Shown one piece after another: positions 1-20,166 of a stretch of DNA of 25,808 bases. The notes under the pieces were generated by a model. The model had not been told where the DNA came from. It saw only the letters and a program-made list of their open reading frames with translations, and did not search any database. A program made the translations under genes and the position numbers. This DNA is from Candidatus Nitrosopelagicus sp. (GTDB lineage: Archaea; Thermoproteota; Nitrososphaeria; Nitrososphaerales; Nitrosopumilaceae): NCBI GenBank assembly GCA_018691945.1, contig JABHJJ010000207.1:1-25808 (forward strand). The letters are read 5' to 3'. Every line of letters starts with the position of its first letter. Positions within the stretch are counted from its first letter, which is position 1.

Positions 1-200
1 GGTTCAGGAATCCATAACATGAGAAATCCCAATTTTTGCATTTTTTTACCTGGTGCAGATGCACGATTTAATGCACCTAAGGATTGAGATGTTTTTTTGT
101 CATCAAGTTTTCCCATATCAGAGTACAAATCAGAACGTCTAGAAGCAGATTCCTTCATAAGTCGTAATTTTTCAATTTTGTCTCTAAGAGGATCAGCCAT
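1..200 (-). CDS. Small hypothetical protein, 3' part cut by window edge
   Basis: The frame starts with ATG at 200 and reads leftwards without a stop to the window edge, giving about 66 residues that begin MADPLRDKIEKLRLMKESAS. The visible part is a charged, probably helical N-terminus rich in Lys, Arg and Asp. From about residue 55 it turns hydrophobic (KLGFLMLWIPE), which could be the start of a membrane segment. A TATA-like stretch about 24-26 bp upstream on the minus strand (219-228) fits a leaderless start. It is divergent from the MntR-like regulator across 116 bp. I do not recognise the family and the C-terminus is missing. Confidence 0.6.
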   Translation of the reverse strand, partial: MADPLRDKIEKLRLMKESASRRSDLYSDMGKLDDKKTSQSLGALNRASAPGKKMQKLGFLMLWIPE

Positions 201-287
201 CTATTGTTATTTTGAAAAATATAGTTAACAGTCAGTGATCAAAATCTACTACGTCCAAGTCAAAATTTTGTCACAATAATTTTGAAT

Positions 288-298
288 TTATATAAAAG
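288..298 (+). promoter_or_regulatory. TATA box of the mntR-like gene
   Basis: A TTTATATAAAAG-type element is centred about 25 bp before the ATG at 317. That is the archaeal TATA-to-start-site distance, so the transcript probably begins at or next to the start codon. Confidence 0.65.
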
Positions 299-316
299 CA
301 ATTTCATATTGCCATA

Positions 317-778
317 ATGAAAAATAAGATTTCACGTAGATTAGATTCAATCAAAGCAGCGCATGAATCAGAGAAAGCAATTTCATCAAGAGTAGAAGAC
401 TATCTAGAAGTGATATCAGAATTAGTAGATATGAAGGGATATGCAGCAACACTTGATATTTCAAGATACATGAACGTTAGTGCCCCAAGCGTAACAAAAA
501 TGCTAAAAAAATTAGATGCTGATGGATATTTAATATACGAAAAATATTATGGAATTAATTTAACAGGAGAAGGTCAACGTATTGCGGACATAATAAAGCA
601 GAAACATGGAATTTTACTTGAATTTTTCGAGATTTTAGGAATTGGAAAGGAGATTGCAAATCAAGATGCAGAAGGAATAGAACATTATCTAAACCCAAAA
701 ACAATTAGACAGATTAGGAAATTTGTAACATTCTTCAAAGCAAATCCAAAAGTGCTTAACAGTTTTAATGAGTTTTAA
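317..778 (+). CDS. mntR: MntR/DtxR-family metal-dependent transcriptional regulator
   Basis: A 153-residue metal-sensing repressor of the DtxR superfamily, closest in appearance to the manganese sensor MntR. A winged helix-turn-helix spans about residues 24-92, with recognition region SAPSVTKMLKKLDADGYLIY, and is followed by a short dimerisation domain at about 93-145. From memory of the Bacillus subtilis MntR ligands (D8, E11, H77, E99, E102, H103), all six are present here as D28, E31, H97, E119, E122 and H123, each shifted by 20. This predicts a dinuclear Mn(II)-type site. There is no C-terminal SH3-like domain, as in MntR and unlike DtxR/IdeR. The basic N-terminal extension of about 20 residues is additional. 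The gene ends 14 bp inside the convergent PINA-like gene. No manganese transporter is adjacent, so the target is not shown by context. Confidence 0.85.
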   Translation: MKNKISRRLDSIKAAHESEKAISSRVEDYLEVISELVDMKGYAATLDISRYMNVSAPSVTKMLKKLDADGYLIYEKYYGINLTGEGQRIADIIKQKHGILLEFFEILGIGKEIANQDAEGIEHYLNPKTIRQIRKFVTFFKANPKVLNSFNEF

Positions 779-2237
779 GGAATATTTCCAGATTATCGTT
801 AGTGTTAACAAATCTAGAAAAACGTTTACCCTCGGTAGAACGTTTCAAGATTTTAATTTTACCTTTTTTGCCTATTCTAGATGAAAAAAGAAATTCATCG
901 TTTACAACAAAGCTTGCAATATTTCCAGTGTACTGTCTATCTACCTCAAATATCAATGCCATTCCAGATTCAGAAAAATCATACGATAAAGCCTGAGACG
1001 GAAGTTCTTGTTGCACCACATGCTCTTCAACATCAATGTGTAAACCAAGAGATTTTTCTAATTCTTGTATGGTTTTTCCAGCCTTACCAATCAATGATGG
1101 AATTGAATCTCTTGAAACAAAGACCTTGATTCTTCCAGGAGTGAGAAATTCAATTTTTGGGTGTGGATCAAATCTATATAATCTATCCAGAATTTTTTCT
1201 TCAGCTAAATGTTCAATACCAGATTTTTGTGAACCGTTTTCAGTTACAGGAATTATGATATTTTCCTCACCAAATGTATAGATTTCATATTCCAGAGTAT
1301 TTGTTTCAAAATCAGATATTTCAATTACAGGCCGAGCCAAGTCTTGTTCAACCATTCCAGATGGAACCTTTACCTTTAATTCCAAATCATAAACTTTGGA
1401 GATTCCTCCATCCTTTACATAAATGACAGTATCTAGTACATTTGGAATAATTCCAAGTTCAATTTTTCCAATAAATCTTTGAATTGCATCAATCGGAGTA
1501 TTTGCATGAACAACCCCAACCATACCAACACCAGTTAATCTAAGATCACTAAAAATTCTAAAATCTTCTCTTCGTCGGACCTCATCAAATATTGTGTAAT
1601 CAGGTCTTACAAGTAACAAAATATCAGCTGAGTTTTCAAAACTTCCATCCAATCTAGTATACTGAGTTACTCCAGGATCAACTTGTAAGTCACGTGGAGA
1701 TTCAAAAGTTTTTACAATATTTCCAGAGCGATTAAAGAAATTTGCAATTCCTGATGCTAGTGTACTTTTTCCAGAACCTGGAGCACCAGAGATTAGAATT
1801 CCTTCCGCTTGTTGTTCCAATCTTGACAATAGTTTCTCAGATAGATGATAATCCTCTAATGACATTTGTTTAATTGGATGAACTATTGTAATTTCTAAAA
1901 GTTCAGAAAATGGAGGTCTTGTGATGGCAATTCGATAATCTCTATACTGTATTACCAAAGCACCAGGTTTTGAGATTTCTGTATTACCAAGTGTTTCATC
2001 ATCAATTGATGCCAAAATTTGTGATGTTATAATTTCAAGATAGTCACGGTCAAGTGTTTTTGTATCTAATTCAACTAATTCGAAATTTCCAGGTTTTCCT
2101 TTTTTTCCAAGAGGTTTTTGATTTTCTTTTAGATGAATGCTCATTGTGGTAGGGTCAAAGAATTTCAGGAATTCCAAATCAGGAGTTTTTTCTCCATTAG
2201 TGACTAATTCTGATTCAGGTTTTTGTAAATCGCTCAT
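765..2237 (-). CDS. PINA-like ATPase with KH domain, lacking the PIN domain
   Basis: A 490-residue P-loop ATPase of the PilT/VirB11-like type found in archaeal PINA proteins, which are hexameric ATPases linked to Holliday-junction processing. The order is a conserved N-terminal ATPase-associated domain (about 20-140, with FFDPTTMSIHLKE and YRIAITRPPFSE), Walker A GAPGSGKST (151-159), a Walker B region ending DYTIFDEVR (213-221), an His-box-like VVHANTPIDAIQRF (242-255), a KH domain with GKAGKT (384-389), and a C-terminal basic tail of about 80 residues. Family members normally carry an N-terminal PIN nuclease domain. Here only about 20 residues precede the ATPase-associated domain and none resemble PIN. 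The ATG at 2237 has a TATA-like element at 2261-2270. It overlaps the convergent mntR-like gene by 14 bp. Confidence 0.85.
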   Translation of the reverse strand: MSDLQKPESELVTNGEKTPDLEFLKFFDPTTMSIHLKENQKPLGKKGKPGNFELVELDTKTLDRDYLEIITSQILASIDDETLGNTEISKPGALVIQYRDYRIAITRPPFSELLEITIVHPIKQMSLEDYHLSEKLLSRLEQQAEGILISGAPGSGKSTLASGIANFFNRSGNIVKTFESPRDLQVDPGVTQYTRLDGSFENSADILLLVRPDYTIFDEVRRREDFRIFSDLRLTGVGMVGVVHANTPIDAIQRFIGKIELGIIPNVLDTVIYVKDGGISKVYDLELKVKVPSGMVEQDLARPVIEISDFETNTLEYEIYTFGEENIIIPVTENGSQKSGIEHLAEEKILDRLYRFDPHPKIEFLTPGRIKVFVSRDSIPSLIGKAGKTIQELEKSLGLHIDVEEHVVQQELPSQALSYDFSESGMALIFEVDRQYTGNIASFVVNDEFLFSSRIGKKGKIKILKRSTEGKRFSRFVNTNDNLEIFLKTH

Positions 2238-2276
2238 AATTGCAATTTAGGCTAGGTTCTATTATGTATTCTTTTA

Positions 2277-2504
2277 ATGCGTAAAACATCCACACAACTT
2301 AAACAAATTATTCTCACAAAGCCAAACAAAAGAATTGTTTTAGATCGATTAGTAATGACGATTCAAGATAATCCTAATTTACAATTTCACTCAGATTGTA
2401 ATAATTATTTTGAATCGTTAAGAGAAAAAGGCGAAACAGATTTTGAGTTTGAAGATGAGTATTTCTTTACCATGCCTGCAATATCACAAATAAGTTTAGA
2501 TTAA
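2277..2504 (+). CDS. Small hypothetical protein (75 aa)
   Basis: A 75-residue frame with an ATG start and no recognised domain. The N-terminal half is basic (MRKTSTQLKQIILTKPNKRI) and the C-terminal half is acidic and aromatic (ETDFEFEDEYFFTMP). It has no signal peptide or membrane helix. It is divergent from the PINA-like gene by only 39 bp, so the two promoters must overlap; CAATTTAG at 2243-2250 is the best TATA candidate. The uracil-DNA glycosylase follows 28 bp later on the same strand. It is probably real because it fills the gap exactly, but no function can be assigned. Confidence 0.55.
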   Translation: MRKTSTQLKQIILTKPNKRIVLDRLVMTIQDNPNLQFHSDCNNYFESLREKGETDFEFEDEYFFTMPAISQISLD

Positions 2505-2532
2505 TTATTCAGTAGTTCCTCGAATCATAGAT

Positions 2533-3258
2533 ATGCACAAGCTAGATTCAATTGCAGAAAATATCAAAGTATGTGAAAAATGTAAGTTATGTGAAACACG
2601 AATAAAGGCGGTTCCAGGTAAGGGAAACTTTGATGCAGACGTAATTTTTGTAGGAGAAGCCCCAGGCAGAAATGAAGATATGCATGGAGAGCCATTTGTC
2701 GGCGCTGCAGGAAAAAGGCTTGATATGATTTTAGAAGATACGGGGATAGATAGAGAAGATGTCTATATCACAAATATTGTAAAATGTAGACCCCCAAAGA
2801 ATAGAGTTCCATCGAAACAAGAAGAAGAGGCATGTAATGACTTTATCAAACAGGAAATCGAAATAATTAATCCAAAGATTATCTGCATTATGGGCAATAC
2901 TGCATATGGTACACTTCTGGATGGAAAAGAGATAACAAAGAATCATGGGAAAATTGTAGAAAAAGATGGAAGGAAGTTTTTTGTGACATTTCATCCTGCT
3001 GCAACAATTTACAATCAAAAACTAGTTGATGAATTAAAAAATGATTTTAGAAGATTAGCAGAGTTTCTAGGAATGAATGATCAACCAAAACAGTATGAAG
3101 AAAGACGATGTGATTTCTGCATGGCTAAAACAAAACACGAGGTGGTGGTCATGCCAAAGGTGGTCACAAGAAAAAGAAGATGGCTCTACAAATGTACAGA
3201 ATGTAATCATGAAAGATGGCTTGTCCCATACAGAACAGTTGCAGAAAGTTTGTACTGA
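2533..3258 (+). CDS. Family-4 (Fe-S) uracil-DNA glycosylase with C-terminal zinc ribbon
   Basis: Removes uracil from DNA at the start of base excision repair. The family-4 core spans about residues 3-180. The four iron-sulfur cysteines fit C14, C17, C85 and C101. Catalytic motif A is GEAPGRNED (41-49) and the second active-site motif is HPAATIYN (154-161). After the core, about 60 extra residues carry two CxxC pairs (C193/C196 and C221/C224) with basic and aromatic residues between them, a typical zinc-ribbon pattern. Common family-4 enzymes are about 190-220 residues, so this 241-residue form is extended. A TATA-like ATTAATTATT at 2502-2511 lies 26 bp before the ATG. Its 3' end nearly touches the convergent collagen-like gene. 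Confidence 0.9.
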   Translation: MHKLDSIAENIKVCEKCKLCETRIKAVPGKGNFDADVIFVGEAPGRNEDMHGEPFVGAAGKRLDMILEDTGIDREDVYITNIVKCRPPKNRVPSKQEEEACNDFIKQEIEIINPKIICIMGNTAYGTLLDGKEITKNHGKIVEKDGRKFFVTFHPAATIYNQKLVDELKNDFRRLAEFLGMNDQPKQYEERRCDFCMAKTKHEVVVMPKVVTRKRRWLYKCTECNHERWLVPYRTVAESLY

Positions 3259-3262
3259 TTAT

Positions 3263-4534
3263 CTAATACAGATGACTTTGTAATTCAATTTGTTCTTCAG
3301 CAGACATGATGCCCTTTCTAACTAAAATGTCGAGCATATCTTTGAACAATTGTTTTTGCTCTTCAGACATTCCACCTTTGTTTCCTTTTTCTCCAGGTGG
3401 ACCAGGAGGACCACGAGGACCTTTTTCTCCCACAGGACCTTGTAGACCCTGTGAACCTTTGTCACCTGAAGGACCTTGTAGACCCTGTTTTCCTTGTTCA
3501 CCTTGTGGGCCTTGAATTCCTTGTGGACCACGAGGACCTTTGTCTCCAGTTAATCCAGGTGGACCTTGTTCACCTTGTGGACCAATAGTTCCACGATCAC
3601 CTTGTGGACCAGGAACACCAGTTAATCCTTTGTCACCAGGACGACCTTGTGGACCACGAGGACCTTTTTCTCCAATCGGCCCAGTAATTCCAATTTTTCC
3701 TTTTTCACCTTGTGGACCTTGTGGACCAGTTGGACCTTTTTCTCCCATTGGACCAGTAACTCCTTTGTCACCTCTTTCACCAACAGGACCGGGAACTCCT
3801 TTATCACCTTGAACACCAGGAGGACCAGTTGGACCTTTTTCTCCTTTGTCACCACGTAAACCAGTTAATCCTTTGTCACCTGAATGACCTTGTTGACCAG
3901 TTGGACCTTTGTCACCTGAAATTCCACGTCCGCCTTGTTCTCCTTTGTCACCTTTGTCACCAGTAAGACCTTTTTCACCTTTGTCACCTTTGTCACCTTT
4001 TGGACCAAGTGTACCTTTGTCACCTTTGTCACCTTTGTCACCAGTGACACCCTTATCACCACCAGTACCTTTTTCACCCGATGGACCTTTGTCACCTTTG
4101 TCACCTTTGTCACCTTCAGGACCAGGAGGACCAGGAGGACCTTTGTCACCTTGAAGAGATCGTGAAGATGGTTTTACTTTAGATGGTTTTGGATCAGATT
4201 TTGGTTTGTTAGGGAGTTGTCTCATTGTTTCAGGAACTTTAAATTCAAAAGAAGTTCCCACAGATGAAAATTGATCAACTAGAATTATCCAGACACTAGT
4301 GAATGTAGAAATTTTTTCAGGTAATGGATTTGATGAAGACCCCAAAGTAGCTTCAAAGTTTCCATTTTTAATATTAAGATGAGATTTTTCACGCCATAGT
4401 GGAAGAAATGATTTTTGTGCAATTTGTTCACCAGAAGGTTTTGCTTCAGTGATAGCAAATTCAACTTCAAAAACACCATTTTTTTGTGTGTAAGGTGATT
4501 GGCCTCTAACAGAAATGTGGTCAGATGAAGACAT
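3263..4534 (-). CDS. Collagen-like protein with 87 uninterrupted Gly-X-Y triplets
   Basis: A 423-residue protein in three parts. Residues 1-108 form a small, mostly beta-looking N-terminal domain of unknown family ([20 protein letters not shown] onward). Residues 109-128 are a Lys/Pro/Ser linker. Residues 129-389 are Gly-X-Y without a single break: glycine at every third position from G129 to G387. Residues 390-423 are a short, probably helical cap ([18 protein letters not shown]). The triplets are dominated by G-D-K, G-E-K, G-P-x and G-x-Q. Adjacent KGD and KGE steps are the arrangement that stabilises triple helices by inter-chain Lys-Asp/Glu pairs in the absence of hydroxyproline. I see no signal peptide and no transmembrane helix. 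The ATG at 4534 lies 26 bp from a TATA box (4553-4566). It is divergent from the TPR gene. The role is unknown; an adhesive, surface or structural function is only inference. Confidence 0.9.
3368..4150 (-). repeat. Nine-base periodic coding repeat of the collagen-like gene
   Basis: The stretch is 783 bp, exactly 87 units of 9 bp, encoding Gly-X-Y. On the plus strand units such as CCTTTGTCA recur, with near-perfect tandem runs around 3944-3962, 3975-3999 and 4014-4040. The homogeneity suggests growth by slippage or unequal exchange. Confidence 0.9.
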
Positions 4535-4552
4535 GATCGTTTCTTTGAATAT

Positions 4553-4566
4553 CTTGTATTTAATTA
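4553..4566 (-). promoter_or_regulatory. TATA box of the collagen-like gene
   Basis: Read on the minus strand this is CTAATTAAATACAAG-like, centred about 26 bp before the ATG at 4534, which predicts a leaderless transcript. Confidence 0.6.
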
Positions 4567-4575
4567 GATTTTCGA

Positions 4576-4605
4576 GCCTATTAGGCGTAATTCCATCGCT
4601 AATGG
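4576..4605. promoter_or_regulatory. Dyad symmetries between the collagen-like and TPR promoters
   Basis: Two inverted repeats sit between the two TATA boxes: GCCTA-T-TAGGC (4576-4586) and CCAT-CGCTA-ATGG (4593-4605). Their place just upstream of both core promoters is where archaeal regulators bind. No regulator can be named from the sequence. Confidence 0.35.
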
Positions 4606-4610
4606 CAGGT

Positions 4611-4621
4611 TGATATTTATC
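4611..4621 (+). promoter_or_regulatory. TATA box of the TPR gene
   Basis: TGATATTTATC is centred about 27 bp upstream of the ATG at 4645, which fits a leaderless or nearly leaderless transcript. Confidence 0.5.
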
Positions 4622-4644
4622 CGATAAATGTAAGAATTTACTTC

Positions 4645-5751
4645 ATGAAGAATGAAAAAAAAGACACATCTCTTAGTAAAAAAGAAGAGACGGGGTTAAC
4701 TAATGTAAATTATCAACGAGATAGACTTTTCAAAAAAGGTATCAATTTCATGGCAGATGAAAAATTAGAAGAAGCAGTAAGAAATTTTGAGATGATACTC
4801 AGAACAGATCCAAATGATGTGGAAGTGATGCTCAAACTAGGATATTCAAGATTCCATTTAGACGACTATTCAGAAGCAATGAGAGTTTATGATAAGATCT
4901 TAGATATTGATATAACGAATCCAGAAGCATGGAATCTCAAATCACTAGTAAATTATGAAAAAAAGAACTATGCAAAAGCATTGGATTGCGTAGAAAAAGC
5001 AATAGACTCAGACCCAACATATGGAATGGCATGGTATAACAAAGGATGTTATCTTTCAATGTTAAATCAAGTACCAGATTCGCTAGAAGCACTAAAACGT
5101 TCAATTGAGATTGATGTTAAAAATGCAAGAAAAGCGGTAAAAGACAAAGACTTTGTAAATGTAAGATCAGAAGAGGGATTCAAACGAATTATTGAGGTTG
5201 TATTAATTGAATCATTACGACAAGGATATCACACAATTGGAGCAATTGTATGGACTACATTCCTAGGAAAAGAAGATACGATCAAAGGATTAGATGAATT
5301 AATCTTGAAAGGAGTTGTTATTAAAAGTGAAAAGAGACAGGGATTTAATCAGATTATACCTATTTATGATTTGGTTCCAGATGTCGCAAAAAAAATTGGT
5401 GCAAAGAGACGTGGACTACTTGGACCAAAAGAGATTGGAAAAGTTCCAACACCTGTTAAAAATCTCAAAGAAATTGGATTAGCAATTCAAACAACAAGGA
5501 CTGCAATAGAAAACGAAGATACTGAAAAAACAGTTGACAGTTTTGATGTATTTATAAATCCAGGAAAATGTGGACAGCAGATGATTGAAGAGTTTTTAGA
5601 CGAACATAGAGAGATTAGATTATACAAAATTAGATTAGATGACAAAGGTAAGGATTATCTAATTGATAATAAAAAGAAGATGCTTGAATTATTTGAAACA
5701 ATAGAAATGCAAGTTACAAAAAAATTACGAGCTAGTGTTACGCAGAATTAA
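4645..5751 (+). CDS. TPR-repeat protein with a C-terminal domain of unknown function
   Basis: A 368-residue soluble protein. After a charged N-terminus (about 1-24), four tetratricopeptide repeats can be followed at about 25-57, 59-91, 93-125 and 127-158, with usual signature positions such as A44, G66-Y67, A78, P93-W96, A110, P124, W130-N132-G134 and P144. TPRs form a helical scaffold for protein-protein contacts. The remaining 200 residues are not TPR. The stretch ESLRQGYHTIGAIVWTTFLG followed by LDELILKGVVIKSEKRQG (about 189-239) could be a winged-helix-like element, but this is a guess from pattern alone. It is divergent from the collagen-like gene, sharing a 110-bp intergenic region, and ends directly against the convergent 68-residue gene. 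The partner is unknown. Confidence 0.8.
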   Translation: MKNEKKDTSLSKKEETGLTNVNYQRDRLFKKGINFMADEKLEEAVRNFEMILRTDPNDVEVMLKLGYSRFHLDDYSEAMRVYDKILDIDITNPEAWNLKSLVNYEKKNYAKALDCVEKAIDSDPTYGMAWYNKGCYLSMLNQVPDSLEALKRSIEIDVKNARKAVKDKDFVNVRSEEGFKRIIEVVLIESLRQGYHTIGAIVWTTFLGKEDTIKGLDELILKGVVIKSEKRQGFNQIIPIYDLVPDVAKKIGAKRRGLLGPKEIGKVPTPVKNLKEIGLAIQTTRTAIENEDTEKTVDSFDVFINPGKCGQQMIEEFLDEHREIRLYKIRLDDKGKDYLIDNKKKMLELFETIEMQVTKKLRASVTQN

Positions 5752-16959: not shown

Positions 16960-18261
16960 ATGACACTTGAGCAACAATCACAAAATTCACTACTAAATTC
17001 ATTTAATGAAACAAGAAATACAACATTACAATTAGTAAAAAATTTGGAAAGAGATGATTTTGGAGTCCAAACTGCAGTTTTTATGAGTCCACCAAAATGG
17101 CATATTGGACATGTAAGTTGGTTAAATGAAATAGTTTTAAGTAAAACACAACAAGATTACAAATTCTTTTCAGAAGAACTTTCAGAGTATTTGAATTCTT
17201 ACTATAATCAATTCGGAAAGCCTCATGATAAATCAAAACGCGGAGTAATGTCAAGACCAACAGTAGATGAAATTTTAGAATATTTTGAGGTTATAACAAA
17301 TAGAGTTAGAGAAGTGATTAGTAAACCATTAGATAAAGAAACTATGTATCTTTTTACAATGGCAATTCATCATGAATGCCAGCATCAAGAACTTTTAGTT
17401 TATGATTTACAACATTTGTTAGGAGATCAATACAAACCAGCAAAGAGAAATGAATCTCCAATTTCATTGAATAAAGAAAAAAAGAAGATTAGAATTAATG
17501 GAGGATTATACAATTTAGGATATTCAGGTAAAGACTATTGTTACGATATAGAACTTCCAGAACATAAAATATATCTAAATGATTATCAAATTGACACTTT
17601 TCCGGTGAGTAATGCAGAATATTTAGAATTCATGAATGAAGGTGGATATGATGACTATTCATTTTGGCTTTCAGATGGATGGGATGCAGTTGAGAAAAAT
17701 GAATGGAATTCGCCAATGTATTGGGAAAAAGATGAGGACCAATGGATAACTAGAGATTTTGCCGGAAAACGAAAAATTAATCAAAATGAACCAGTCTGTC
17801 ATGTAAGTTTCTATGAAGCATCAGCATACTGTAAATGGGCAAATAAGAGATTACCAACGGAAGCAGAATGGGAAAAAGCAGCATTATGGAATAATGAGAA
17901 AGGAGTCAAAACAGATTTTCCATGGGGTAATGAAAAACCAACAGAATCACATGCAAACTTGTTAGAATCAAATATTTGGAATTGTAGTGATATTGGTTCT
18001 TATGAAAACGGAAAAAGTAATTATGGATGTTACCAAATGATAGGTGATGTTTGGGAATGGACAACATCAGAGTTTGTTGGATATCCAGGTTTCAAAAGTG
18101 GTTTTGATGAATATAATGACAAATGGTTTACAAATCAAAAAGTATTACGTGGAGGATCATTTGGAACACCATCAAAATCAATTAGAGGATCTTACAGAAA
18201 CTTTTTCAGATTAGATGAAAGATGGTTAATTTCGGGATTTAGATGTGTAGAAGATATTTAG
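16960..18261 (+). CDS. egtB: Hercynine oxygenase EgtB (ergothioneine synthesis)
   Basis: A nonheme iron enzyme that joins hercynine to a cysteine-containing thiol and oxidises it to the sulfoxide, 433 residues. The N-terminal DinB-like domain (about 8-160) supplies the iron-binding three-His site: H51 in WHIGHVSWLNE, and H138 and H142 in AIHHECQHQE (HxxxH followed by xE). The C-terminal formylglycine-generating-enzyme/sulfatase-modifying domain (about 175-430) has PVCHVSFYEASAYCKWANKR, LPTEAEWEKAA, GDVWEWT and VLRGGSFGT. It has no fused methyltransferase, unlike OvoA. EgtD is convergent with stop codons overlapping by 4 bp. Whether Cys or gamma-Glu-Cys is the thiol donor cannot be told from this view. 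Confidence 0.92.
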   Translation: MTLEQQSQNSLLNSFNETRNTTLQLVKNLERDDFGVQTAVFMSPPKWHIGHVSWLNEIVLSKTQQDYKFFSEELSEYLNSYYNQFGKPHDKSKRGVMSRPTVDEILEYFEVITNRVREVISKPLDKETMYLFTMAIHHECQHQELLVYDLQHLLGDQYKPAKRNESPISLNKEKKKIRINGGLYNLGYSGKDYCYDIELPEHKIYLNDYQIDTFPVSNAEYLEFMNEGGYDDYSFWLSDGWDAVEKNEWNSPMYWEKDEDQWITRDFAGKRKINQNEPVCHVSFYEASAYCKWANKRLPTEAEWEKAALWNNEKGVKTDFPWGNEKPTESHANLLESNIWNCSDIGSYENGKSNYGCYQMIGDVWEWTTSEFVGYPGFKSGFDEYNDKWFTNQKVLRGGSFGTPSKSIRGSYRNFFRLDERWLISGFRCVEDI

Positions 18262-19307
18262 ATTTTTTTTGCCAAGACAAGAACAAAATATTTTTGTGAA
18301 TCAAACCACATTTCAAGTTTTTCAAAGTTTGATTCCTTCAATGAGGACTCTATTTGTGAGATAGAAAATTTGTGTGAATTCTCAGTATGAATTAATTCAT
18401 CTTTTGAGAGAGTAATTGAAAGTTCAGATTTCGAGATTGTGATAGATTGTTCAGATAATGAACGGAGATACATCTCAATTCGACCTTTTTCTTCGTCATA
18501 AACAGCATGATGTTCAAAATTTTCTATATTAAAATTAGCATCCAATTCATCATTAATTCTTTTTAGAACATTTAGATTGAATTTTGCAGTTGTTTTTTGG
18601 GAATCATTGTATGCATTGTGTAGAACTTGTTGATCTTTTTTCAAATCCAGTCCAATTAAAAACAGATCATCAGATTTCATCAGATTATTGATTTTTTGAA
18701 GAAATAGCATCCCTTCATTTTTACTAAAATTTCCAAAGCTTGAACCAAGAAAAGTTATCAGATTAGGTTTATCATCATAATGTTCAATAAAATCAAGACC
18801 ATTTTCAAAGGTATCAACTACACCAGTCACTGAGAGATTTGGATAATCCATACAGAGATTTTTAGCACTTTGATCTAGAATTTCAGATATGTCTATTGGA
18901 AAATATTGTAAATGGTTTTGAGATTTTAGTAGAATATCAATTAAAAGTCGAGTCTTCACTGAAGAGCCACTTCCCAATTCTACTAAATGAAATTCATTTG
19001 AAAGATATGGGATTAATTTTTTCTCAATTGCTTGTAAAATTTCAGTTTCAGCATTGTATGGGTAATATTCAGGAAGTGAACATATTTCATCAAAAATTTT
19101 TGAACCATCTTTATCATAGAAAAATTTTGGACTGATTGATTTTTTTGGTTGTAAAAGTGTATGACGGATTTCTTCAGCAAAGGTGGTAGTAGTACTAATC
19201 TTAGTAGGCTTGAAATACGTTAAATTTTCTTGAATTGAATATGATTGATATCCTAACAGTTCCTGCTTTGATTTATTGTTCATATTTTGACGATTTTTGT
19301 TTTGCAT
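18258..19307 (-). CDS. egtD: L-histidine N-alpha-methyltransferase EgtD
   Basis: Trimethylates histidine with SAM to hercynine, the first step of ergothioneine synthesis. The 349-residue protein matches EgtD over its length: substrate region SISPKFFYDKDGSKIFDEIC (57-76) and LPEYYPYNAETEIL (78-91), SAM motif VELGSGSSVKTR (109-120), YFPIDIS (135-141) and FLGSSFGNF (187-195). The frame stays open to 19475, but the ATG at 19307 is preferred. A minus-strand TATA box (19324-19336) sits about 24 bp ahead, and the longer form adds a hydrophobic stretch foreign to the family that overlaps the divergent ABC gene. The ATG at 19283 is an alternative. Convergence with egtB makes the pathway assignment firm. 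Confidence 0.9.
   Translation of the reverse strand: MQNKNRQNMNNKSKQELLGYQSYSIQENLTYFKPTKISTTTTFAEEIRHTLLQPKKSISPKFFYDKDGSKIFDEICSLPEYYPYNAETEILQAIEKKLIPYLSNEFHLVELGSGSSVKTRLLIDILLKSQNHLQYFPIDISEILDQSAKNLCMDYPNLSVTGVVDTFENGLDFIEHYDDKPNLITFLGSSFGNFSKNEGMLFLQKINNLMKSDDLFLIGLDLKKDQQVLHNAYNDSQKTTAKFNLNVLKRINDELDANFNIENFEHHAVYDEEKGRIEMYLRSLSEQSITISKSELSITLSKDELIHTENSHKFSISQIESSLKESNFEKLEMWFDSQKYFVLVLAKKI
18263..18270 (+). terminator. T8 tract after egtB
   Basis: Eight consecutive T residues start one base after the egtB stop, a plausible archaeal oligo-T terminator. It lies inside the last codons of egtD on the other strand. Confidence 0.4.
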
Positions 19308-19336
19308 AAATTTCTTATCACAGGAGAATATAATAC
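19304..19336. promoter_or_regulatory. Interleaved divergent promoters of egtD and the ABC ATPase
   Basis: A minus-strand TATA (GGTATTATATTCTC, 19324-19336) serves egtD and a plus-strand TATA (GCATAAATTT, 19304-19313) can serve the ABC gene. The start codons are 34 bp apart, so each TATA lies close to the other gene's start site and simultaneous occupancy is unlikely. Confidence 0.45.
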
Positions 19337-19341
19337 CGATA

Positions 19342-20166
19342 ATGAATAATATTTTAAAAGTTGAGAATTTAACAAAGAAATTCAAGAAAAAAAACTTTTT
19401 TTCATCTGATTCTGAAGAGGTTATTGCAGCAGATTCAGTAAATTTTTCAGTAGAGCAAGGAAAAATTTTAGCCATAGCAGGACAGTCGGGTTCAGGAAAA
19501 TCTACTATTGCAAAATTAATTCTAAGAGCAATTAAACCAGATTCAGGAAAAATTTTCTATAAACAAAAAGAAATTAAAGATAATTCAGATGAATTAAAAA
19601 AATTTAGAATGAAATGTCAAATGGTCTATCAAGATCCTTATGATTCAATTAATCCAAGAATGACAGTTTTAGATATAGTTAATGAACCTCTAGAAATTCA
19701 TAATTTAGGTACAAAAAAAGAACGTAAACAAAAAGTAATTGAAACATTACAAATGGTAAAACTAGAACCAGCGGAAGAAATTTCAAAAAAGCACCCACAT
19801 ATGCTTTCAGGAGGTCAGAGGCAAAGAGTTGTAATTGCAAGAGCAATAGTAGTTCAACCAGAAATTATTATTGCAGATGAACCAGTATCAATGCTAGACG
19901 TTTCAATACGTGCTGAGATTTTAGAACTAATGAAAGAAATTCAAAATAAAAATAATATTTCTATGATATACATTACACATGATCTTGCTACAGCCAAACA
20001 TTTTGCAGATGATATTCTAATTTTGAATTCAGGCAAAGTTGTAGAATCAGGTTCAATTAAACAAATATTATCAAATCCAACAGATTCATACACTAAAGCA
20101 TTAATTTCTGCAATATCAGAACCAGATCCAAATAATCTCTATAAAGAAAAGAAGATTTCAGTTTAA
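19342..20166 (+). CDS. ABC transporter ATPase, oligopeptide (DppF/OppF) type
   Basis: A 274-residue ATP-binding subunit of an ABC importer. Walker A is GQSGSGKST (47-55), the Q-loop region is MVYQDPYDSINPRMTV (94-109), the signature is LSGGQRQR (155-162), Walker B is IIIADEP (175-181) with the D-loop SMLD, and the switch His is in ITHD (211-214). QDPYxSxNPR and the C-terminal YTKALISAI segment are typical of the oligopeptide/nickel importer family. The ATG at 19342 is chosen over an in-frame TTG at 19297 that lies inside egtD. No permease or binding protein is near, so it is an orphan in this window. Its substrate is unknown; the divergent pairing with egtD may be coincidental. Confidence 0.88.
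   Translation: MNNILKVENLTKKFKKKNFFSSDSEEVIAADSVNFSVEQGKILAIAGQSGSGKSTIAKLILRAIKPDSGKIFYKQKEIKDNSDELKKFRMKCQMVYQDPYDSINPRMTVLDIVNEPLEIHNLGTKKERKQKVIETLQMVKLEPAEEISKKHPHMLSGGQRQRVVIARAIVVQPEIIIADEPVSMLDVSIRAEILELMKEIQNKNNISMIYITHDLATAKHFADDILILNSGKVVESGSIKQILSNPTDSYTKALISAISEPDPNNLYKEKKISV

Follow-up and report, generated by a model that had tools for sequence, protein, structure and literature searches.

A near-universal, single-copy collagen-like gene of the Nitrosopumilaceae whose product carries no recognisable export signal and may form an intracellular rod

The window analysed here, a stretch of 25,808 nucleotides from Candidatus Nitrosopelagicus sp. (assembly GCA_018691945.1, contig JABHJJ010000207.1), contains a gene for a collagen-like protein which is transcribed away from a neighbouring gene for a TPR-repeat protein. 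The following features, in window coordinates, make up the locus:

3263..4534, minus strand: collagen-like protein of 423 aa (open reading frame and translation; PF01391)
4229..4522, minus strand: orphan N-terminal domain, approximately residues 5-102 (alignment conservation; profile match 4229-4519)
4151..4228, minus strand: Lys/Pro/Ser linker, residues 103-128 (translation and orthologue alignment)
3368..4150, minus strand: 87 unbroken Gly-X-Y triplets, residues 129-389 (glycine at every third residue)
3395..3421, minus strand: GPR-GPP-GPP towards the C-terminus of the collagen domain, a possible nucleation site (motif G[PS][RK]GPPG[PA]PG)
3266..3367, minus strand: C-terminal cap, residues 390-423, or 36 aa by architecture count (alignment; profile match 3266-3373)
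4555..4561, minus strand: TATA-like AAATACA, 27 nt before the ATG, a putative promoter element
4645..5751, plus strand: divergent TPR-repeat protein gene (TPR Pfam matches; conserved neighbour)

The collagen-like open reading frame is complete from ATG to stop, and the plus strand across the same interval is full of stops. A preliminary description had placed an archaeal collagen-like protein at exactly this position, leaving out the strand, and had read it as an uninterrupted run of 87 Gly-X-Y triplets (G129-G387) combined with an N-terminal domain, a Lys/Pro linker and a short cap. All of these elements are borne out. The run comprises 87 consecutive triplets, against a longest glycine-every-third run of 8 in 2000 shuffles of the same residues; the three flanking parts are present; and the protein, from a host belonging to the Nitrososphaerota, matches the Pfam family Collagen (PF01391) with 144 bits (E 1.1e-42; cut-off 27.2), which identifies it as a Gly-X-Y protein. 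The commonest triplets in its collagen domain are GDK (20), GEK (8), GPQ (7) and GPP (6).

The N-domain displays an amphipathic beta-type pattern. It had no Pfam match at E up to 10, no counterpart among solved structures in a profile search at E up to 10 and no PHROGs match below E 0.2, whereas the linker that follows it varies in both length and sequence among orthologues according to their alignment. Two protein-database searches with the N-terminal region returned one and four hits, and the hits P0004-P0006 look like chimeras in which the N-domain is joined to unrelated or neighbouring sequence. The cap gave no match in the Pfam scan. A likeness of the N-domain motif to a domain of bacterial fibre proteins, and of the cap to a SHOCT-type hairpin, was considered and received no support from any search. 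It is plausible that both end domains act as trimerisation modules.

A search with the whole protein recovered matches in 135 of the 151 genomes of the window's family, the Nitrosopumilaceae, covering 22 of 22 genera, and in 93 of the 96 family genomes of good quality (completeness of 90% or more, contamination of 5% or less), leaving 16 and 3 genomes, respectively, without a match. As such matches may stem from the collagen repeats alone, the search was carried out with the N-domain only, using a profile built from a 27-row alignment (A1). At the level of the order, 78 of 250 genomes were matched, all of them Nitrosopumilaceae and each with one match; among the 172 genomes without a match, the 20 that were listed comprise 4 Nitrosopumilaceae and 16 members of other families. 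At the level of the phylum, 43 of 300 genomes were matched at E up to 0.01, again exclusively Nitrosopumilaceae. The search of named genomes yielded 126 relatives; the 80 best of these bear the depositor labels Nitrosopumilus, Nitrosarchaeum, Nitrosotenuis, Nitrosotalea, Nitrosomarinus, thaumarchaeotes or archaea, with one further entry among these 80 (L130) labelled Nitrososphaeraceae. A profile of the cap identified the collagen open reading frame in all 14 family genomes searched with it, the match in G004 being weak (E 0.03). Three genomes from other families gave no match, and one additional weak match (E 0.13-0.97) turned up in each of G080, G008 and G124. The collagen gene is thus near-universal and single-copy in Nitrosopumilaceae, including the window's genus, the genomes of which measure about 0.8-1.2 Mb and are in many cases incomplete. 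The preliminary description had considered a protein of this kind uncommon in such an archaeon, which is wrong for this lineage given the 135 of 151 family genomes.

Archaeal collagens have been counted as few, with 2,554 bacterial and 14 archaeal sequences in the Pfam of the time, according to the accessible part of PMC4565658, and collagen-like proteins are mentioned for marine Euryarchaeota, a different group, in that of PMC5069720. In the literature found by our search, as far as its accessible parts go, there is no description of the Nitrosopumilaceae family: the available text of PMC12448741 contains nothing on the collagen gene, that of PMC11082331 no filament terms, and those of PMC8889253, PMC6697440 and PMC10280926 nothing relevant to the gene.

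For comparison of architecture, we define the orthologue group by the N-domain, the collagen part, the cap and the place beside the TPR gene, a definition that includes the window gene. The 50 loci collected contain 49 with a full N-domain (L011 is cut and was dropped), representing 38 distinct proteins, every one of which has a single unbroken collagen run of 87-163 triplets. Ten further copies were read, nine of them unbroken, extending the range to 68-185 triplets, so that one unbroken run characterises 47 of the 48 readable copies, a count that leaves out L167, which is split over reading frames, and L170, which contains masked bases. The interrupted copy, L168, comes from the 0.8 Mb genome G004 and retains runs of 10 and 22 triplets. 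The split orthologue L167 (G006 C1, ~44.9-46.5 kb) represents either a pseudogene or an assembly error. Within the window's genus, two length classes are found, with 87 triplets (12 copies) and 68-69 triplets (5 copies). With the rise of 0.286 nm per residue typical of collagen, the computed length of the rod, if helical, is ~75 nm for the window protein and 58-159 nm across the copies. In the 38 orthologues, between 21 and 35% of the collagen triplets are of the charged G[DE][KR] type. Charged triplets make up 40% of the first quarter of the collagen part and 17% of the last, and the motif G[PS][RK]GPPG[PA]PG stands at the end of that part in 38 of 38.

The repeat is maintained at the protein level. 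Among 12 full-length orthologues of the same genus, 87 of 87 glycines are invariant and 76 of the 87 glycine codons show synonymous differences. Of the 87 X and the 87 Y positions, by contrast, 43 and 30, respectively, are variable in their residue. The glycines are under strong purifying selection. Chance or a repeat artefact is ruled out by this conservation together with the shuffles. The cap is almost invariant, its median dN/dS being 0.009 (58 pairs, range 0-0.1); the corresponding medians are 0.093 in the N-domain (64 pairs, 0.022-1.467) and 0.116 in the collagen part (66 pairs, 0.005-0.374).

Other collagen-like proteins exist in these archaea and differ from the orthologue group. PF01391 matches occur in 122 genomes out of 200 from the class. 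Of these 122, 11 lie outside Nitrosopumilaceae and, the N-domain having no match outside the family, must carry other proteins; in the window's genome and in G019, every PF01391 match falls in this one collagen open reading frame. Six further open reading frames from genomes of the same family (L161-L165 and L171) likewise contain Gly-X-Y repeats, yet charged G[DE][KR] triplets number 0 of 725 in these six and 0 of 743 with L166 included. A hydrophobic stretch, lacking in the window protein, stands at the start of five of them (the sixth, L161, is truncated N-terminally), and other domains were identified in three of the four that were scanned: fn3 and FG-GAP in L161, DUF11 in L165 and phage Collar in L171. 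L164 (G076, 1-4755), which bears a signal, has a run of 422 triplets with no charged triplet and extends past the stretch read. L161 and L162, both from MY2, lie at contig ends and may be two parts of a single gene: L162 has a signal-like N-terminus and repeats rich in Ala and Lys, L161 the fn3 and FG-GAP domains. L171 (G003 C1, 1787-2725), also signal-bearing, joins a short collagen run to a phage tail Collar domain.

The genomic setting of the collagen gene is conserved. The TPR gene lies directly beside it, in divergent orientation, in 19 of 21 loci, of which the window is one, when ORFs under 65 aa are disregarded (the exceptions are L035 and L046). Downstream, 13 loci contain a 94-aa gene, F11, either directly or after small ORFs, and the genes beyond F11 were read by eye as coding for a DRG-type GTPase, a HAD phosphatase and ArgS. 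The window differs in that F11 was not found there and UDG and PINA-like genes occupy the position. F11 itself is conserved and has no Pfam match (L048 7307-7591 and relatives). Farther along the window, a convergent pair at 16960-18261 (plus strand) and 18258-19475 (minus strand) encodes FGE-sulfatase/DinB_2 and histidine-specific methyltransferase domains, which we take to be domains as in the ergothioneine enzymes EgtB and EgtD.

The TPR gene is present in 56 of 121 genomes in all, 32 of which belong to other families. At three of eight loci from other families, L176 and L177 from one family and L180 from another, it faces F11 with no collagen gene between them (in L176 when one 102-aa ORF is ignored); at the other five of these eight loci, F11 was not found beside it. 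Since TPR and F11 are divergent neighbours in related families, the probable origin of the collagen gene is a gain between these two genes in the ancestor of the Nitrosopumilaceae. Its subsequent inheritance appears, as far as the trees show, to have been vertical: of its 20 splits, the tree of the N-domain plus cap has 10 in common with each of the TPR and NirA-like trees (23 taxa), the latter two share 13 splits with each other, and shuffled labels give a mean of ~0.2 shared splits with a maximum of 3 in 2000; no tree conflict was found at support of 0.9 or more. Recent horizontal or viral acquisition is contradicted by this agreement with the host trees and by the N-domain having no relatives in viral_contigs or phage records.

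No export signal is recognisable in the orthologues. In the first 40 residues of the 38 proteins, the highest 18-residue mean hydropathy is 1.09, compared with 1.9-2.8 near the N-termini of L162, L163, L164, L165 and L171, which served as positive controls; by this hydropathy measure, a crude test, 0 of 38 has a signal peptide. Likewise, 0 of 38 has LPXTG in the last 60 residues or RR in the first 30. A signal peptide hidden behind an upstream start is ruled out for most orthologues by in-frame stops: 31 of 38 have one within ~110 nt upstream of the N-domain motif, and in L028, L045, L049 and L050, which have a single in-frame start, a stop is positioned 6 nt ahead of it. The seven orthologues with no such upstream stop are L001, L014, L015, L025, L029, L043 and L046; L025, which may conceal a signal peptide, has in-frame start codons upstream. 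A TATA-like match lies 24-36 nt before an in-frame start in 35 of 38 orthologues (the exceptions being L012, L013 and L025), a spacing which suggests leaderless transcripts. Signal absence is not unique to this orthologue family, as L166 likewise lacks a signal; this collagen-like open reading frame contains 18 proline-free triplets and falls slightly short of the Pfam cut-off. Given that no export signal is recognisable, the protein may work inside the cell rather than on the surface.

Taken together, we give an even chance to the view that the gene encodes a lineage-core structural protein of Nitrosopumilaceae, a homotrimeric rod of the cytoplasm that serves as a spacer or scaffold. Its components merit separate weights: formation of a triple helix is very likely and residence in the cytoplasm is probable, while a scaffold or spacer role is a tentative proposal that we would put somewhat below even. 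The more detailed account, whereby this cytoplasmic collagen is a trimeric rod of sub-lineage-typical length and an intracellular cytoskeletal or spacer element, which arose once at the base of the family and was kept in nearly all members, those with streamlined genomes included, is possible but doubtful. Mechanistically, three identical chains would join through the C-terminal cap, which would set their register; formation of the triple helix would then start at the conserved GPR-GPP-GPP next to the cap and proceed in the direction of the N-terminus. PF13640, of the prolyl-hydroxylase type, exceeds its cut-off in one of 13 genomes and is absent from the four of these that belong to the window's genus; stability should therefore rest on charged pairs, that is, on Lys-Asp/Glu pairs instead of hydroxyproline. 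The three small beta-type N-domains would cluster at the far end of the rod as a binding head, so that the rod might hold the partners of the N-domains at a set distance inside the cell.

A surface location is the strongest competitor, albeit one that we consider unlikely. The protein would then be an adhesin or form a protective layer at the surface, possibly associated with the S-layer, and would leave the cell by a route that needs no classical signal peptide, an assumption also made for the collagen-like adhesin of Ca. N. chungbukensis. Proteins can be exported without a recognisable signal, and most prokaryotic collagen-like proteins of known role are surface proteins. Nevertheless, the absence of signal peptide (by hydropathy), LPXTG and RR from all 38 orthologues means that the usual secreted-adhesin picture is not easily reconciled with the protein; five other collagen-like open reading frames of these archaea do possess an N-terminal hydrophobic stretch. 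The accessible part of PMC13037477 reports an LPXTG-anchored collagen-like adhesin in MY2, which was detected in the proteome and shows higher expression at low salinity. The MY2 orthologue, which lies on contig NZ_AVSQ01000015.1 at about 185.9-187.3 kb, is the best scorer for that name among the three MY2 collagen open reading frames read, which speaks for the surface location, but remains under the curated cut-offs (174 of 500, 167 of 325 and 149 of 400 bits). On these scores and the portion of the paper available, the reported adhesin may be the MY2 orthologue of the present gene under a misleading name.

We regard as improbable that the gene encodes a domesticated protein of the viral tail-fibre type, made in the cytoplasm for a released particle or an injection device. 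The collagen part does resemble PHROGs phage tail-fibre families (best 7.3e-58), and fibres of this type lack a signal peptide, but these matches are confined to Gly-X-Y, the N-domain has neither viral nor PHROG relatives within the limits given above, and the gene lies among house-keeping genes and has a tree that agrees with those of the host. Equally improbable is a low-complexity disordered linker joining two small domains and forming no triple helix in the cell: the scarcity of PF13640 and the variability of X and Y positions would suit it, but it needs no glycine at every third position, 87 of which are fixed in 12 orthologues despite synonymous turnover, and bacterial collagen-like proteins form triple helices without hydroxyproline.

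The Nitrosopumilaceae are among the most abundant archaea of the ocean, and this dominant group of nitrifiers possesses a near-universal, single-copy collagen gene, the probable gain of which can be placed by gene order. If the protein resides in the cytoplasm, it would represent a constitutive, intracellular structural collagen of a free-living cell, outside spores and phages. In addition, names such as 'LPXTG-anchored collagen-like adhesin', when transferred from the repeats alone, can mislead physiological interpretation.

Among characterised systems, the streptococcal proteins Scl1/Scl2 (SclA/SclB) parallel the window protein in combining a long Gly-X-Y domain with a globular module; in the Scl proteins, the former makes a triple helix that contains no hydroxyproline and the latter is the N-terminal V domain. 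By contrast, Scl proteins have a signal peptide and an LPXTG anchor, the latter carried in the Scl NCBIfam name, and neither is seen in the window protein or its orthologues. The Legionella adhesin Lcl resembles the window protein in the collagen part (203 bits, under the curated cut-off of 500 for NF046116) and differs from it in being a surface adhesin, whereas the window protein has no export signal. Membership of the Scl or Lcl families is ruled out by scores under the curated cut-offs, which for the window protein also include 146 of 325 bits for NF038329 and 133 of 400 bits for NF038330. A further parallel is offered by the collagen-like tail fibres of phages and BclA of the Bacillus exosporium, which are cytoplasmically synthesised collagen rods lacking a signal peptide; from the phage fibres, with which the comparison was made, the window protein is set apart by an N-domain devoid of viral relatives and by its encoding in a chromosomal, single-copy gene.
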